The notes under the pieces were generated by a model. The model was not told the origin of the DNA, ran no database searches, and saw nothing but the letters and a program-made list of their open reading frames with translations. 64,000 nt of DNA from Solirubrobacter pauli (lineage in GTDB: Bacteria; Actinomycetota; Thermoleophilia; Solirubrobacterales; Solirubrobacteraceae), in NCBI RefSeq assembly GCF_003633755.1, contig NZ_RBIL01000001.1:3085426-3149425 (forward strand), in the 5' to 3' direction. Within the stretch, counting starts at the first letter, position 1; the number at the start of each line of letters is the position of its first letter. Positions 51,905 to 57,845 of the stretch are shown here, piece after piece. Both the position numbers and the translations under genes were made by a program.

Positions 51905-52392
51905 TTGCTGCGTTCAACCTGTACACGGTCTCGCTGTTCCTCCACATCAGCGCCGCCATCGTCGGCCTCGGCGCGACGTTCGCGCTCTCGATCGCCTTCC
52001 CGCTCGCGGTCCGGATGGGCGACCCGCGCCACCTGCTGTTCATGCACCGGCTGAACCTCGAGGTGATCACGAAGCTGGCCAGCCCGGCGCTCGCGCTGAT
52101 CCTCGTCACCGGCATCGTGCAGGTCCTCGACAGCGACTTCATCGGCTTCGGCGACGCGTGGATCAGCACCGCGTTCGTGCTCGTGATCATCATCGGCGGC
52201 CTGCAGGGCGCCTACTTCACGAAGACCGACCGCAAGCTCGCCGCGCAGGTCGAGTCCGAGCTGGCGAGCGGTGCGACCGAGCTCTCGCCCGAGTATCAGC
52301 TGGAAGCGCGGCGTGAGGGCAGCATGGGCGCGCTCACCGGCCTGCTCGTGCTGGCGACCGTCGCCGTGATGGTGTTCAAGCCAGGCGCGTAA
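51901..52392 (+). CDS. DUF2269-type integral membrane protein
   Basis: A 163-residue protein with four helices (about 8-32, 55-80, 88-108 and 140-158) and conserved His residues in FLHISAAIVGLG and LFMHRLN, which may bind haem or metal. The family's function is unknown. GTG start overlapping the HAD stop. Confidence 0.8.
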   Translation: MIAAFNLYTVSLFLHISAAIVGLGATFALSIAFPLAVRMGDPRHLLFMHRLNLEVITKLASPALALILVTGIVQVLDSDFIGFGDAWISTAFVLVIIIGGLQGAYFTKTDRKLAAQVESELASGATELSPEYQLEARREGSMGALTGLLVLATVAVMVFKPGA

Positions 52393-54553
52393 CCGGCTGC
52401 AGCGCCAGCGCGGCGAGCTCGGCGGCCGGCATCGGGCGGCCGATCAGGAAGCCCTGGCCGTAGTCGCAGCCGCTCTCGGTGAGCAGCGCGTGCGCCTCGT
52501 CGGTCTCGATGCCCTCGCCGACGGCGCGCAGGCCGAGGTTGTGCGCGAGGTCGACGATCGTCTGCACGATGGTCGCGGCCTCCGGGTCCTCGTCCATGCC
52601 GAGGATGAAGGACTTGTCGATCTTGAGCTCCTGCACGGGCAGCTCACGCAGGTAGGCGAGCGAGGAGGAGCCCGTGCCGAAGTCGTCCAGCGAGAGCTCG
52701 ATCCCGAGCTCGCCGAGCTTGTTCATGATCTCGATCACGCGCACCGGGTCGGCGGCGACGATCGTCTCGGTGATCTCCAGCAGCAGCATCGACGGGTCGA
52801 GCTCCCACTTCTCCAGCAGCGCCTTCACGTCGACCGGCAGGCCGAGGTCGAGCAGGTTCGGCGCACCGAGGTTGACGGCGACCGGGAGGTTCAGGCCGGC
52901 GGCCTGCCAGCGCGCGCACTGGCCGAGCGCGTCGTCGAGGACGCGCAGGGTGAGCGGGCGCATCAGGCCGGTCTGCTCCGCGAGCGGCAGGAACGCGCCC
53001 GGGCCGAGCAGGCCGAACTGCGGGTGCTCCCAGCGCACGAGCGCCTCGGCGCCGCGGACCGTCCCGCTCTGCAGGTCGAACTTGGGCTGGTAGTGCACGA
53101 CGATCTGGCCCGACTCGATCGCGTCCGGCAGCTCGCCGATCAGGGCGAGCCGCGCGCGTGAGTGGCCGTCGCGCGACGCGCTGTAGACCTCGTAGCCGAC
53201 GCCGCGGCTCTTGGCCGAGTACATGGCGATGTCGGCGCGCTGCATGAGCGACTCGACGTCGCGGCCGTGCTCGGGGAACATCGCGATGCCGACGCTGGCG
53301 CGCACGAGCATCGTCATGCCCTGGAAGCGGAACGGCTCCTCGATCGCCGCGCCGAGCTTGCCCGCCATCACCTCGGCGGCCTCGACGGTCGTGTCGAGCG
53401 GCATCAGCACGGCGAACTCGTCGCCGCCGACGCGGGCCACGAGCGAGGCGCCGGGCGCGCACGCTTCCAGCCGCGGCCCGATCTCGCGCAGCAGCCGGTC
53501 GCCGGCCTGGTGGCCGAGCGTGTCGTTGAGCTCCTTGAAGTGGTCGAGGTCGATCAGCAGCAGCGCGAGCTTGGTCTTGGCGGCGCGCGCGGCGGTGGTC
53601 GACTCGTCGAGGCGGGCGAACAGCTTGCGGCGGTTCGCGAGGCCGGTGAGCGGGTCGTGCAGCGCGTCGTGCTCGCGCTGGGCGGCGAGCGCGCGCAGCT
53701 CGTCCTCGAGCTCGCGGCGGTCGGTGGCGTCGCGCATGTTGAGCACGAAGCCGCCGACGCTGGTGTCGTGCAGGCGGTTGGCCGCGACGACGTCGAAGTG
53801 GCGGTGGCCGCCGGCGCCGTGCGCGAGGCGCAGCGTCAGGTTGCGGCGCAGGTCGGGCTTGCCGTCGGCGTCGGCGAAGTAGCCGTCGAGCGCGGGCCGG
53901 TCGTCGGGGTGGACGAGGTCGTGCACGCGCGTGCCGACGATCGCGTCGGGCGCATGGCCGAGCACGCCGCGGATCGACTCCGCCTGCCAGCGCACCCGCT
54001 GGTCGGCGCCGACGATCGTCACCACGTCGGTGGAGTTCTGGACGATCGAGTTCAACCGGCGCTGGATGGTCTCGGAGGTGCGGAGCGCGACCAGCAGGGC
54101 CTGGGCGAGCAGCGGCGCGAGGGCGACGGCGGCGACGCGCGCCATGTCGGCCTCCATCTGCTCCTCGCCGCGGCCGGCGTGCGCGCCGAGCAGGGCCGCC
54201 ATCCACAGCACGTACCGGGCCACGGCCAGCGGGAAGCCGCCGTAGAGGCTGCGGAAGAGGATGCCCAGCAACGGGAGGAACGGGTCGCCCGGCGCCACGT
54301 GCAGGATCAGGAAGACGGCGTAGGCCTCGAACGGCTCGAGCGCGAGCGCGAAGCGACGCCGCTTGTAGCCGAGGATCCAGTAGCCGCCGAGCGCCAGCGA
54401 CAGGACGACGCCCGCGAGCTTCGCGGGCGCGCTGGCGTCACCCGTCGGGACCGTCAACGCCGCCTGGGCCGCGCCGGCGACCGCGAACGCGAGGAAGAGC
54501 AGCCGGAACCGCGCGAACGGGGTCTGGGGCAGCTTGACGGCGGGTCGGATCAC
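52376..54553 (-). CDS. Membrane GGDEF-EAL protein with PAS domain
   Basis: About 725 residues: four to six membrane helices (1 to about 165), a PAS domain (about 175-290; IVQNSTDVVTIVGADQRVRW), a GGDEF domain with intact VARVGGDEFAVLMP (about 395), and an EAL domain with intact EALVRWEHP and DDFGTGSSSLAYL (about 475-720), plus EGIET. Both c-di-GMP-making and -breaking motifs are complete, so it may be bifunctional. GTG 54553 is chosen because AAGGA precedes it and the frame upstream looks non-coding. Divergent from the synthase fusion gene. Confidence 0.9.
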   Translation of the reverse strand: MIRPAVKLPQTPFARFRLLFLAFAVAGAAQAALTVPTGDASAPAKLAGVVLSLALGGYWILGYKRRRFALALEPFEAYAVFLILHVAPGDPFLPLLGILFRSLYGGFPLAVARYVLWMAALLGAHAGRGEEQMEADMARVAAVALAPLLAQALLVALRTSETIQRRLNSIVQNSTDVVTIVGADQRVRWQAESIRGVLGHAPDAIVGTRVHDLVHPDDRPALDGYFADADGKPDLRRNLTLRLAHGAGGHRHFDVVAANRLHDTSVGGFVLNMRDATDRRELEDELRALAAQREHDALHDPLTGLANRRKLFARLDESTTAARAAKTKLALLLIDLDHFKELNDTLGHQAGDRLLREIGPRLEACAPGASLVARVGGDEFAVLMPLDTTVEAAEVMAGKLGAAIEEPFRFQGMTMLVRASVGIAMFPEHGRDVESLMQRADIAMYSAKSRGVGYEVYSASRDGHSRARLALIGELPDAIESGQIVVHYQPKFDLQSGTVRGAEALVRWEHPQFGLLGPGAFLPLAEQTGLMRPLTLRVLDDALGQCARWQAAGLNLPVAVNLGAPNLLDLGLPVDVKALLEKWELDPSMLLLEITETIVAADPVRVIEIMNKLGELGIELSLDDFGTGSSSLAYLRELPVQELKIDKSFILGMDEDPEAATIVQTIVDLAHNLGLRAVGEGIETDEAHALLTESGCDYGQGFLIGRPMPAAELAALALQPVTRLA

Positions 54554-54709
54554 CTTGTCCTTGAGTTTCGGACAGATGGCCGAGGTCTTTAGCCGGACGT
54601 TCGATTCTTGGCGCCGCGTGGCGGTTTCCGCGTGACCGACATCACATTCAAGGTCTCTCACCGGTCGGCCGATGGATGCGTATCACGATCCGATTTGTGG
54701 GGGAACACC

Positions 54710-57100
54710 GTGCCGACTGCTGAAGAGCGCCTGGCGATCCTGGACGAAGTACTGACCGAGGCGGCCGGCAAGGGCCTGCTGCAGCTTTCACCCGACGACG
54801 TGGCGCCGCTGGATGGTCGGACGATCTCCCTGGATGGCCGCTCGGTCGTGAGCTTCGGCTCGTGCAGCTATCTGGGCCTCGAGCTGGACCCGCGGATGAA
54901 GCAGGCGACGATCGACGCCGTCCTGCGCTACGGCACCCAGTTCTCCAGCTCGCGCGGGTACCTGTCCTCGCCGCAGTACCTCGAGCTCGAGACGCTGCTG
55001 AGCCAGATGTTCGGCGGCCACGTGCTCGTCACGCCGACGACGTCGCTCGGGCATCTGTCGACGCTGCCGGTGCTCGTCGACTCCACGGACGCGGTCCTGC
55101 TCGACCATCAGGTCCACGCGTCCGTCCAGATGGCCGCGAACCAGCTGCGCGTGAAGGGCACGGCGGTCGACCTCGTCCGCCACAACCACATGGAGCGGCT
55201 CGAGGCGATGATCAACCGCCTCTCGAAGGACCACGACCGGATCTGGTACATGGCCGACGGCGTCTACTCGATGTTCGCCGACCTCGCGCCCTTCGCCGAG
55301 CTGCGTGCGTTGCTCGACAAGTACCCGCAGCTGTGGCTCTACGTCGACGACTCGCACGGCGTCGGCTGGGCGGGGCAGCACGGGCGCGGCCCGGCGCTCG
55401 ACGTCCTCGGCGGCCACCCGCGCGTGATCGCCGCGTGCTCGTTGAACAAGTCCTTCGGCGCCGCCGGTGGCGCGATCGTGTTCCCGGACGCCGAGCTGCG
55501 CCGCCGCGTGAAGACGGGCGGCGGCCCGATGATGTTCTCCGGCCCGATCCAGCCGCCGCTGCTCGGCGCCGCGATCGAGTCGGCCAAGATCCACCTGTCG
55601 GACGAGCTGCCGGCGCTGCAGGCGGCGCTGCGCGAGCGCGTCGAGCTGTTCACGTCGTTGTGCTCCGAGCACGGCATCCCGCTCGCGACCACTGACACCA
55701 CGCCGATCCGCTACGTCCCGCTCGGCCTGCCGGTCGTCGCGCACGACGTGATCGGGCAGATCCTCGCGGACGGCTACTACACGAACCTCGGCACGTTCCC
55801 GGCGGTGCCGATGAAGCACGCCGGCGTGCGCATCACGCTCACGCTGCACCACACGGTCGAGGACATCCGCGGGCTGGTCGAGTCGCTGGCGCGGCACGTG
55901 CCGGCCGCGCTCGAGCGCGCGGGCGAGGCCGCCAAGCGCCGCCACGCGAAGATCGTCGGCGAGCACGGTCCGGCGCTGGCGATCGAGCACCACGTCTCGG
56001 CCGACGCGCTCAACGCCGCCGAATGGGACACGCTGCTGGGCGAGCGCGGCACGTTCACCGTCGACGGCCTGCGGTTCCTCGAGCGCGCCTTCGGGCAGCC
56101 GGGCGAGCGCCCCGAGGACCAGTGGGCGTTCCACTACTACGTCGTGCGCGACCGCGCGGGCAAGGCCGTGCTGGCCACGTTCTTCACGGCGGCGCTGTGG
56201 AAGGACGACATGATGGCCTCCGCCGCCGTGTCCGACCTCGTCGAGGCGCGGCGTGCCGAGGACCCGTACTACCTGACGTCCACGACGTTCGGGATGGGCT
56301 CGCTGCTGACCGAGGGCGACCACCTGTACCTGGACCGCAACGCCGACTGGAAGGGCGCGCTGGACCTGCTGATGGCGGCCGTGTCGGAAGACGCGCGCGC
56401 GGCCGGGGCCGGCACGATCGTGTTCCGCGACCTGCACGCGGCGGACCTCGAGCTGGCCGAGGCGGTGCGCGAGCGCGGCTACGTGAAGACGTCCCTCCCA
56501 CAGTCGCTGGTGTACGAGCCGGTCCACGGCGGAGACGCGGAGTGGCTGGCGAAGCTGTCGGTCAAGGCGCGCGTGCACCAGCGCAAGTCCGTGCTGGCGT
56601 TCGACGACGCCTACGAGGTCGAGTGGCTGCGCGCGGGCGGCCGCGAGGTGAGCGACGCCGAGCTCGACCACCTGTACGCGCTGTACCTCGCCGTGCAGGC
56701 GCGCGGGCGCGACCTGAACTCGTTCCCGCTGCCCAAGGGCTTCCTGCGCGACATGCTCGCCCACCCGTCGTGGGAGCTGATGACGCTGCGGCTGAAGGAG
56801 AGCGGGACGGTCGTGGCCTTCGGCGCGCACTTCGTCGGCACGCGCCACTACGCGCCGATGGTCGTCGGGCTCGACTACGACTACACGCGCTCGCACGGCG
56901 CCTACCGCCAGGCACTGCGCCAGGCGGTCCTGCGCGCGCGGGAGCTCGGCTCCAAGCGCGTCCTGCTGGGCATGGGCGCGACGTTCGAGAAGACCCGCTT
57001 CGGCGCGCATGTGCAGGAGCGCGTGGCCTTCGCGCAGGCGAGCGACCATTACTCGAGCGAGGTGCTCGCGGCGCTGGCCGCCGACTCACACGGCGCCTGA
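54710..57100 (+). CDS. Alpha-oxoamine synthase fused to FemAB-like/GNAT acyltransferase
   Basis: About 796 residues. The N-terminal half (about 1-405) is a PLP-dependent alpha-oxoamine synthase (BioF, KBL and serine palmitoyltransferase family): SYLGLELDPRMKQA, SSRGYLS, YVDDSHGVGW, and the Schiff-base lysine in ACSLNKSFGAAGGAIV. The C-terminal half (about 440-790) is an acyltransferase of the FemAB/GNAT type (VHQRKSVLAF, FGAHFVGTRHYAPMVVGLDYDY, LGMGATFEKTRFG). This could make and N-acylate a long-chain base. GTG 54710 follows GGGGGAAC; an earlier GTG at 54632 is possible. Confidence 0.85.
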   Translation: MPTAEERLAILDEVLTEAAGKGLLQLSPDDVAPLDGRTISLDGRSVVSFGSCSYLGLELDPRMKQATIDAVLRYGTQFSSSRGYLSSPQYLELETLLSQMFGGHVLVTPTTSLGHLSTLPVLVDSTDAVLLDHQVHASVQMAANQLRVKGTAVDLVRHNHMERLEAMINRLSKDHDRIWYMADGVYSMFADLAPFAELRALLDKYPQLWLYVDDSHGVGWAGQHGRGPALDVLGGHPRVIAACSLNKSFGAAGGAIVFPDAELRRRVKTGGGPMMFSGPIQPPLLGAAIESAKIHLSDELPALQAALRERVELFTSLCSEHGIPLATTDTTPIRYVPLGLPVVAHDVIGQILADGYYTNLGTFPAVPMKHAGVRITLTLHHTVEDIRGLVESLARHVPAALERAGEAAKRRHAKIVGEHGPALAIEHHVSADALNAAEWDTLLGERGTFTVDGLRFLERAFGQPGERPEDQWAFHYYVVRDRAGKAVLATFFTAALWKDDMMASAAVSDLVEARRAEDPYYLTSTTFGMGSLLTEGDHLYLDRNADWKGALDLLMAAVSEDARAAGAGTIVFRDLHAADLELAEAVRERGYVKTSLPQSLVYEPVHGGDAEWLAKLSVKARVHQRKSVLAFDDAYEVEWLRAGGREVSDAELDHLYALYLAVQARGRDLNSFPLPKGFLRDMLAHPSWELMTLRLKESGTVVAFGAHFVGTRHYAPMVVGLDYDYTRSHGAYRQALRQAVLRARELGSKRVLLGMGATFEKTRFGAHVQERVAFAQASDHYSSEVLAALAADSHGA

Positions 57101-57125: not shown

Positions 57126-57845
57126 TCAGCGGTTGTGGTTGACGGCCTCCACGTTGTGGCCGTCGGGATCGAGGACGAAGGCCCCGTAGTAGCCGGGGTG
57201 GTACTCGGCGCGCTCTCCGGGCGCGCCGTTGTCCTCGTATCCCGCCTCGATGGCGGCCGCGTGGAACGCGTCGACCTTGGCGTTCGTGTCGGCGCTGAGC
57301 GCGATGTGCACGTGTTCGGTGACGGGCTCGCCGGTGACGTAGGAGAACGACGCGCCGTCCGTGATGATCTGGACGTGGTCGGGCTCGTCGACGCCGATCG
57401 CGTGCCCGGTGGCGACGTAGAAGCGCCTGATCGCCGCGACGTCGCGCGTGCGCAGCCACAGGTGGTCGATCGCGCCCGTCTCCCGCGTCCGGCCGGTGTA
57501 GACCGCCTCGACGCTGTTGCCGTCCGGGTCGCGGAGGAAGCCGCCGTAGTAGTCCTCGCGGTACTGGGGGCGAGGGCCGGGCGCGCCGTCGTCCTGGTAG
57601 CCGGCGTCGACGCCGGCGCGGTGGAAGGCGTCCACGAGGTCGTGGGACGGCGCGAAGAACGCGATGTGCAGGTGCTTCGTGACCGGACCGTCCGTGCCGA
57701 TCGCGAAGTCGCCCCACTCGGTGTACGTCGGGTCGTCGTGCCGCTCGAGGCCGAGCACCGGCAGGACGGTGTCGTAGAAGCGCTGCGACGCGTTCAGGTC
57801 GGCGACGCGGATGCCCACATGGTCGATCACACGGTCATTGTGCAC
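57126..57845 (-). CDS. Two-domain VOC (glyoxalase-like) protein
   Basis: A 239-residue protein made of two tandem VOC domains (about 1-118 and 124-236), both beginning IDH(V/L) and both ending with DPDGxxVEAV. Each has the His/Glu pattern of vicinal oxygen chelate metal sites. The GTG start overlaps the stop of the cytochrome gene upstream by 11 bases. A dioxygenase or resistance-type function is possible; the substrate is unknown. Confidence 0.88.
   Translation of the reverse strand: MHNDRVIDHVGIRVADLNASQRFYDTVLPVLGLERHDDPTYTEWGDFAIGTDGPVTKHLHIAFFAPSHDLVDAFHRAGVDAGYQDDGAPGPRPQYREDYYGGFLRDPDGNSVEAVYTGRTRETGAIDHLWLRTRDVAAIRRFYVATGHAIGVDEPDHVQIITDGASFSYVTGEPVTEHVHIALSADTNAKVDAFHAAAIEAGYEDNGAPGERAEYHPGYYGAFVLDPDGHNVEAVNHNR

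Follow-up and report, generated by a model that had tools for sequence, protein, structure and literature searches.

A fused alpha-oxoamine synthase and tandem GNAT protein of Solirubrobacter pauli as a candidate synthase of an acylated amino-ketone signal

What might be made by a protein that carries an alpha-oxoamine synthase (AOS) and an acyltransferase in one chain? The question is raised by a single gene at 54710-57100 of the window, the whole stretch of 64,000 nucleotides analysed here, from the 7.1-Mb genome of Solirubrobacter pauli (NZ_RBIL01000001.1, positions 3,085,426 to 3,149,425). A sequence-only reading of the window had proposed that an AOS of the serine palmitoyltransferase (SPT) or BioF type is joined there to a FemAB/GNAT-like acyltransferase, and that the protein makes a sphingoid- or ceramide-like lipid in this lineage. 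The joining of the two domains at exactly these coordinates was borne out by the reading frame, by Pfam and NCBIfam searches and by the predicted folds. The open reading frame runs uninterrupted from 54608 to 57100 (+), and the GTG at 54710 is the start kept among Solirubrobacter species, where the conserved stretch begins V/MPTAEERL; the extension of the frame up to 54608 is not conserved in related species. As to the product, we assign a probability of roughly one half (0.52) to the reading that this fusion makes an acylated amino-ketone signal, in the manner of CqsA and LqsA with a built-in N-acyltransferase.

In a Pfam search of the 796-residue protein, residues 34-394 matched PF00155 (6.9e-24). 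All the NCBIfam AOS models matched the same domain and none of their cut-offs was reached, the scores being 148.4 of 426.45 bits for BioF, 131.6 of 460 bits for Kbl, and 139.2/500, 128.7/640 and 91.7/670 bits for the SPT equivalogs. The best model was PRK07505 (NF005697), with 261.5 bits against a cut-off of 342, and it was matched by 32/32 members of the fusion family. Six residues, H136, D213, D214, H216, K247 and R374, were invariant in all 32 aligned fusions. By analogy with BioF and SPT, we take K247 to be the pyridoxal phosphate (PLP) lysine, H136 the stacking histidine, D213, D214 and H216 the Asp/His cofactor site, and R374 the carboxylate-binding arginine. With invariant active-site residues and a matching fold, the N-terminal domain is, as judged from its sequence, an AOS in the general sense. 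Its nearest solved relative was Alb29, both in a sequence search of PDB (226-230 bits vs 185 for SPT) and in a Foldseek search (E 4.7e-33, TM score 0.88 by target length).

A tree was built from 17 fused AOS domains and 13 others, and all the fused domains formed a single clade (100/100). A branch of 100/100 also parted them from BioF, Kbl, HemA and a separate SPT-like enzyme of the host, in a tree that was built without a proven SPT or CqsA and whose SPT-like member does not itself reach the SPT cut-offs (417.3 of 640 bits). The nearest branch consisted of three stand-alone AOS proteins of plasmids, for which the tree label PRK07505 is our own, the records saying aminotransferase class I/II-fold. 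A stand-alone relative of the AOS domain on plasmid pSK04 of R. leguminosarum (L083:5067-7119) adjoins a response regulator gene and lies next to the conjugation gene traA; no response regulator adjoins two other stand-alone AOS.

The C-terminal part of the window protein (residues ~421-796), searched alone, gave no Pfam match at E<=10. Among the 32 family members, PF13480 (GNAT) was matched by 22 (best 2.2e-11) and PF04339 (FemAB_like) by 10 (best 5.2e-9), and by hhalign the profile of the domain could be aligned over 323 columns to a strong PF04339 protein (2.6e-9). By these matches the domain has the FemAB_like/GNAT acyltransferase fold, to which the bacterial ceramide synthase bCerS presumably also belongs. 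The strong PF04339 protein (L134) was considered as a bCerS and rejected: since no SPT adjoins it by eye, it is regarded as a generic FemAB_like protein rather than a proven bCerS. The AlphaFold model of the C-terminal half had a mean local confidence (pLDDT) of 93.3, and that of the full chain 90.3, with a predicted TM score (pTM) of 0.85. Searches of PDB by sequence with this domain gave nothing convincing; by structure, FemX was matched at 1.5e-13 in Foldseek, and Sbb17, Sba18, FemX and FemA at Z 20-23 (Sbb17/FemX structure 9wqw: Z ~22.8, root-mean-square deviation 3.1 A, 275 residues), followed by MprF and N-myristoyltransferase at about 17, with sequence identities of 11-19% to the top structures. 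Eight polar residues (K498, D500, R515, H538, D574, N670, Y732 and K761) were invariant, which suggests a working site in this domain. As modelled, the fold does not discriminate between acyl-CoA and aminoacyl-tRNA as the donor. A stand-alone homologue of the C-terminal domain (385 aa; hhalign 98.7%, 3.3e-16) was also found in a flavobacterium (G422:C11; L129:6052-7209, minus strand), and no AOS gene was seen beside it.

The fusion is not peculiar to this lineage. When 84,980 species genomes were searched with the C-terminal half alone, 37 loci were detected in at least five phyla, an undercount given that the scan relied on two peptide patterns. Some of the loci are closely related to one another (L048 and L049, for example), and together they span Solirubrobacterales, Blastococcus, Motilibacter, Actinoplanes, Mycobacterium angelicum, Paenibacillus, Bacteroidota, Sandaracinaceae, and deltaproteobacterial and cyanobacterial metagenome-assembled genomes (MAGs). 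In 34 of them the AOS stands in the same frame as the C-terminal domain; the other three show frame breaks (L052 and L081) or are cut by a contig end (L060). The nearest named matches of the scan were Solirubrobacter species, with a 93% match to S. phytolaccae over the C-terminal domain. A comparison covering the host and 150 relatives showed the full fusion in 7/7 genomes of the genus and in a single further genus of this family, and its occurrence is therefore more than chance; the remaining matches, among those listed, were AOS-only. A class-wide search with the C-terminal domain was positive in 7/399 genomes including the host, and a sample of Actinomycetota in 1/396, the host itself. The distribution is also patchy in one flavobacterial family, of which 20/199 genomes carry the fusion. 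In another set of 20 genomes, nine carried two or more full fusions (G417, G418, G420, G421, G424, G425, G426, G429 and G433). None of the 631 matching plasmid records covered 80% of the fusion, and no plasmid record matched a flavobacterial C-terminal domain; 10 phage records matched, through the AOS domain only, and in none did the match reach 80% of the fusion. The copy of Mycobacterium angelicum (L079; NZ_MVHE01000037.1) is about 71% identical to that of the window, and horizontal transfer or a contaminating contig are candidate explanations for it.

The genes around the fusion were compared among the 37 loci, using gene calls from a simple script rather than a gene finder. A sensor or regulator (histidine kinase, response regulator, GGDEF-EAL or AraC type) was located within about three genes of the fusion in 26 loci. 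In Solirubrobacterales, a divergent PAS-GGDEF-EAL gene was kept in all eight loci with upstream sequence. The cyanobacterial MAG UBA8530 (G433; L053, L130 and L131) carries three fusions, each adjoining a related histidine kinase gene, and a fusion there is flanked on both sides by histidine kinases whose N-terminal part looks hydrophobic by eye. Near the fusion, Actinoplanes has hybrid kinases and the deltaproteobacterial MAG has a response regulator. No partner of the CerR, acyl carrier protein or acyl-CoA ligase kind was recognised by eye among the conserved neighbours.

The most regular arrangement was found in Bacteroidota, where a DUF7793 gene was next to the fusion in 16/16 loci, together with a kinase or AraC-type gene in 15/16. 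A set of 14 Bacteroidota genomes held 26 full fusions, of which 25 had a divergent DUF7793 gene upstream within 3.5 kb, against 0.17 expected from uniform placement; for this count the fragments or stand-alone matches G417:C178, G422:C11 and G429:C1 were omitted and the two pieces on G429:C2 were taken as one gene. At the one exception (G418:C299), a kinase gene takes the upstream place of DUF7793. Some Bacteroidota genomes hold two to four paralogous cassettes, and five (G422, G423, G427, G428 and G430) hold exactly one DUF7793 gene, located at the fusion. In a separate test on 18 further flavobacterial genomes with 19 full fusions, a divergent DUF7793 gene and a PAS-AraC gene each accompanied 19/19, an RteC gene 15/19 and an HTH_17 gene 14/19; the fragments G577:C1:714060 and G579:C29 were omitted, the already-used genomes G420 and G428 were excluded, and, since the set shares its family with many of the first genomes, its rows are not independent in descent. 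The same HAMP-PAS module that the kinases carry makes up the first ~180 residues of the AraC regulators (hhalign 99.6%, 1.8e-23), and this represents, by sequence comparison, one sensor module with two outputs. The DUF7793 profile matched an uncharacterised protein in PDB (3bl4). Outside Bacteroidota, a Sandaracinaceae genome has DUF7793 on a contig different from that of the fusion. Pfam confirmed RteC (6.5e-61) and TraG (4.7e-61) in representative loci, and the flavobacterial cassette is therefore placed on conjugative elements. The AraC-DUF7793-fusion cassettes of flavobacteria (L067-L070, L072, L074, L075, L078 and L160-L178) are mostly followed by RteC and conjugative-element genes, and lie near MauE/DoxX-like, SusD-like or M16 peptidase genes (these last named by eye).

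We propose that the AOS domain would condense an amino acid with an acyl thioester, with loss of CO2, to give an alpha-amino-ketone, and that the tandem-GNAT domain would then N-acylate this labile product, stabilising it as an amide. The product would be sensed by the regulator encoded next door: in Solirubrobacter the PAS-GGDEF-EAL protein, with cyclic di-GMP (c-di-GMP) as its output, in other phyla histidine kinases, and in Bacteroidota the HAMP-PAS module carried on a histidine kinase or on an AraC DNA-binding domain, together with the SpoIIAA-like DUF7793 protein. Because the synthase is kept over great distances beside sensors of which the sensing part is constant and the output varies, an autoinducer-like system is suggested. 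In flavobacteria, the cassette AraC-DUF7793-fusion-RteC may couple the level of the signal to excision and transfer, since it stands with RteC on conjugative elements. Passages of PMC1976400 describe RteC as controlling the excision and transfer genes of CTnDOT. The element CTnDOT of Bacteroides resembles the flavobacterial elements in having an RteC-family regulator, and differs in that the two-component pair RteA-RteB stands beside RteC, in place of which the flavobacterial elements carry the AraC-PAS regulator, DUF7793 and the fusion.

Likeness to CqsA and LqsA lies in the PLP-dependent AOS fold, in the lipophilic ketone expected as product, and in the pairing of the synthase gene with that of a sensor kinase or regulator, which was found in the 26 of 37 loci and in 19/19 of the separate flavobacterial set, where the neighbour would act as the receptor. 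These two alpha-hydroxyketone autoinducer synthases are a precedent for AOS enzymes in such a role. According to passages of PMC3376566 and PMC3285556, several bacteria have LqsA homologues clustered with homologues of the sensor kinase LqsS, and the enamino-ketone products of CqsA were probably lost during earlier sample preparation. The fusion differs in that CqsA and LqsA are single-domain proteins lacking a GNAT part, and in its partners, which include GGDEF-EAL, AraC, DUF7793 and RteC proteins besides kinases. On a wider scale, an undescribed signalling system across Actinomycetota, Bacteroidota and other phyla may be considered tentatively, at less than even odds, in which PAS-type sensors with exchangeable outputs (kinase, AraC or c-di-GMP) detect an amino-ketone that bears an N-acyl or N-aminoacyl group. 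In flavobacteria, such a system would form a transferable quorum-type switch on conjugative elements, sensing how many neighbours already carry the element and controlling the excision that RteC drives; DUF7793 would be a small partner that binds the ligand.

Several points weigh against a signal. The score against the alpha-hydroxyketone synthase model PRK07179 (CqsA/LqsA) was only 57.8 of 428 bits; the fusion would work like an AOS-type autoinducer synthase yet fails the cut-off for membership in that family. With the limited set of sensor queries used, neither a regulator nor DUF7793 was found nearby in 10/37 loci: five of Blastococcus (L058 and L060-L063, L060 being cut on the upstream side), Paenibacillus L059, Motilibacter L055, Sandaracinaceae L076, M. 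angelicum L079, in which polyketide synthase (PKS) genes stand in place of regulators, and L051, where the contig begins inside the gene. One further locus (L081) has DUF7793 with neither a kinase nor an AraC-type gene nearby. With 54 GGDEF matches in the host, adjacency to GGDEF in a single genome would mean little; by our arithmetic a chance GGDEF neighbour is expected at one or two per cent, and the Solirubrobacterales species compared are related. The best fold matches of the C-terminal domain use aminoacyl-tRNA, not acyl-CoA, and in flavobacteria the fusion could be a metabolic gene that its neighbours control, with no sensing of the product. Activity, metabolite and receptor binding are all predicted.

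The alternative closest to the sequence-only reading is a one-chain SPT and ceramide synthase that makes a sphingoid- or ceramide-like membrane lipid. The order of its chemistry is plausible: passages of PMC11087976 describe Spt and bCerS of Caulobacter as both cytoplasmic and acting in sequence, acylation preceding reduction, and the fusion resembles this pair in placing an AOS before an N-acyltransferase. SPT is also among the nearest solved structures of the AOS fold, the C-terminal domain falls in the FemAB_like/GNAT group, and an invariant S81 precedes R82 at a site that, by our reading of the alignment, has Ser in SPT and BioF and Val in Kbl (residues as given in part of PMC11906848). 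A protein that condenses and then acylates is thus retained from the earlier proposal, and its assignment to a membrane sphingolipid is judged unlikely. Spt and bCerS are encoded by separate genes in other gene company; the fusion misses the SPT cut-offs by far, its AOS forms a clade apart from the host SPT-like enzyme, itself below the SPT cut-offs, several copies may occur per genome, and it stands among sensors, regulators and conjugative elements without the partner genes sought by eye. Moreover, the host owns a separate SPT-like AOS (G000:C1:3795230-3796390; SPT-CFB 417.3 of 640 bits, SPT-beta 395.7 of 500 bits). This gene has a PF04116 fatty-acid hydroxylase after it and a 380-aa open reading frame in divergent orientation (L158:6195-9209; G000:C1 ~3795194-3798208), and the region is a candidate for the true sphingolipid locus of the host. 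The 380-aa frame gave no Pfam or NCBIfam match and had no profile similarity to the C-terminal domain (0.15%), and no protein above the SPT-CFB cut-off was found over 24 genomes. A sphingolipid operon was rejected, the SPT-like gene lying ~650 kb from the fusion and the host genome giving no PF04339 match at E<=1.

Two other explanations concern the donor and the use of the product. The C-terminal domain might move an amino acid from aminoacyl-tRNA onto the amino-ketone, or onto the amino acid before condensation, giving an aminoacyl-amino-ketone rather than a fatty amide. Its top structures are the aminoacyl-tRNA-dependent peptide synthases Sbb17/Sba18 and FemX/FemA, ahead of the N-myristoyltransferases; the fold does not fix the donor, as relatives sharing the tandem GNAT fold, all stand-alone or in other fusions, use either aminoacyl-tRNA (FemX, Sbb17, MprF) or myristoyl-CoA (N-myristoyltransferase), and at such low identity this transfer is rather improbable. 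Because it is compatible with a signal, it competes on chemistry only. More improbable still is a secondary-metabolite enzyme for defence or competition, of which the regulators merely control the production. Alb29, the nearest solved AOS, belongs to the albogrisin pathway and uses L-glutamate (as stated in part of PMC11906848), and the M. angelicum copy is followed by modular PKS and type III PKS genes. Alb29 differs from the fusion as a stand-alone enzyme of a natural-product pathway. At most loci only regulators, and no other biosynthetic gene, stand beside the fusion. The product may also be a minor structural lipid.

The features of the locus are collected below. Both flanking genes of the fusion are on the opposite strand, and the start of the divergent neighbour that is conserved in relatives may be near 54550.

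Features of the fusion gene and its surroundings in the window
Feature	Position	Strand	Remarks
AOS-GNAT fusion gene	54710..57100	+	796 aa, GTG start; neighbours both on other strand
Shine-Dalgarno-like GGGGGAA	54699..54705	+	Before the GTG start; G-run retained in related species
N-terminal AOS domain	54710..55942	+	Residues 1-411; AOS core 34-394
K247 codon	55448..55450	+	PLP lysine by homology; invariant in 32/32 fusions
Linker	55943..55969	+	End of a long helix; residues 416-418 are the only segment with pLDDT <50
C-terminal tandem GNAT / FemAB-like domain	55970..57097	+	Residues 421-796
Divergent neighbour	52376..54661	-	Hydrophobic N-terminal part (by eye), PAS_4, GGDEF, EAL (Pfam)
Probable shared divergent promoter region	54551..54709	.	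If the neighbour starts at ~54550
Convergent downstream gene	57126..57845	-	VOC (glyoxalase-type) look by eye; not thought part of the system

Proteins of this kind are publicly annotated as bifunctional aminotransferase/GNAT. The closest family model, PRK07505, is named 'hypothetical protein' and covers about 400 positions without the GNAT domain; it resembles the fusion as the best model for the window protein, and the nearest branch of the tree consists of stand-alone plasmid AOS proteins. In the open-access literature, subscription papers lying outside the search, no paper was found that ties AOS plus GNAT, PRK07505, DUF7793 or RteC to such an enzyme.

Little is known of how cells of Bacteroidota and of soil Actinomycetota signal to one another by small molecules, or of how flavobacterial conjugative elements time their transfer. 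The cassette, as obtained from the reading of genomes, names together a candidate synthase, a candidate sensor and a candidate regulator. It also gives a warning that pairs of an AOS and an acyltransferase should not be taken by default as sphingolipid genes.

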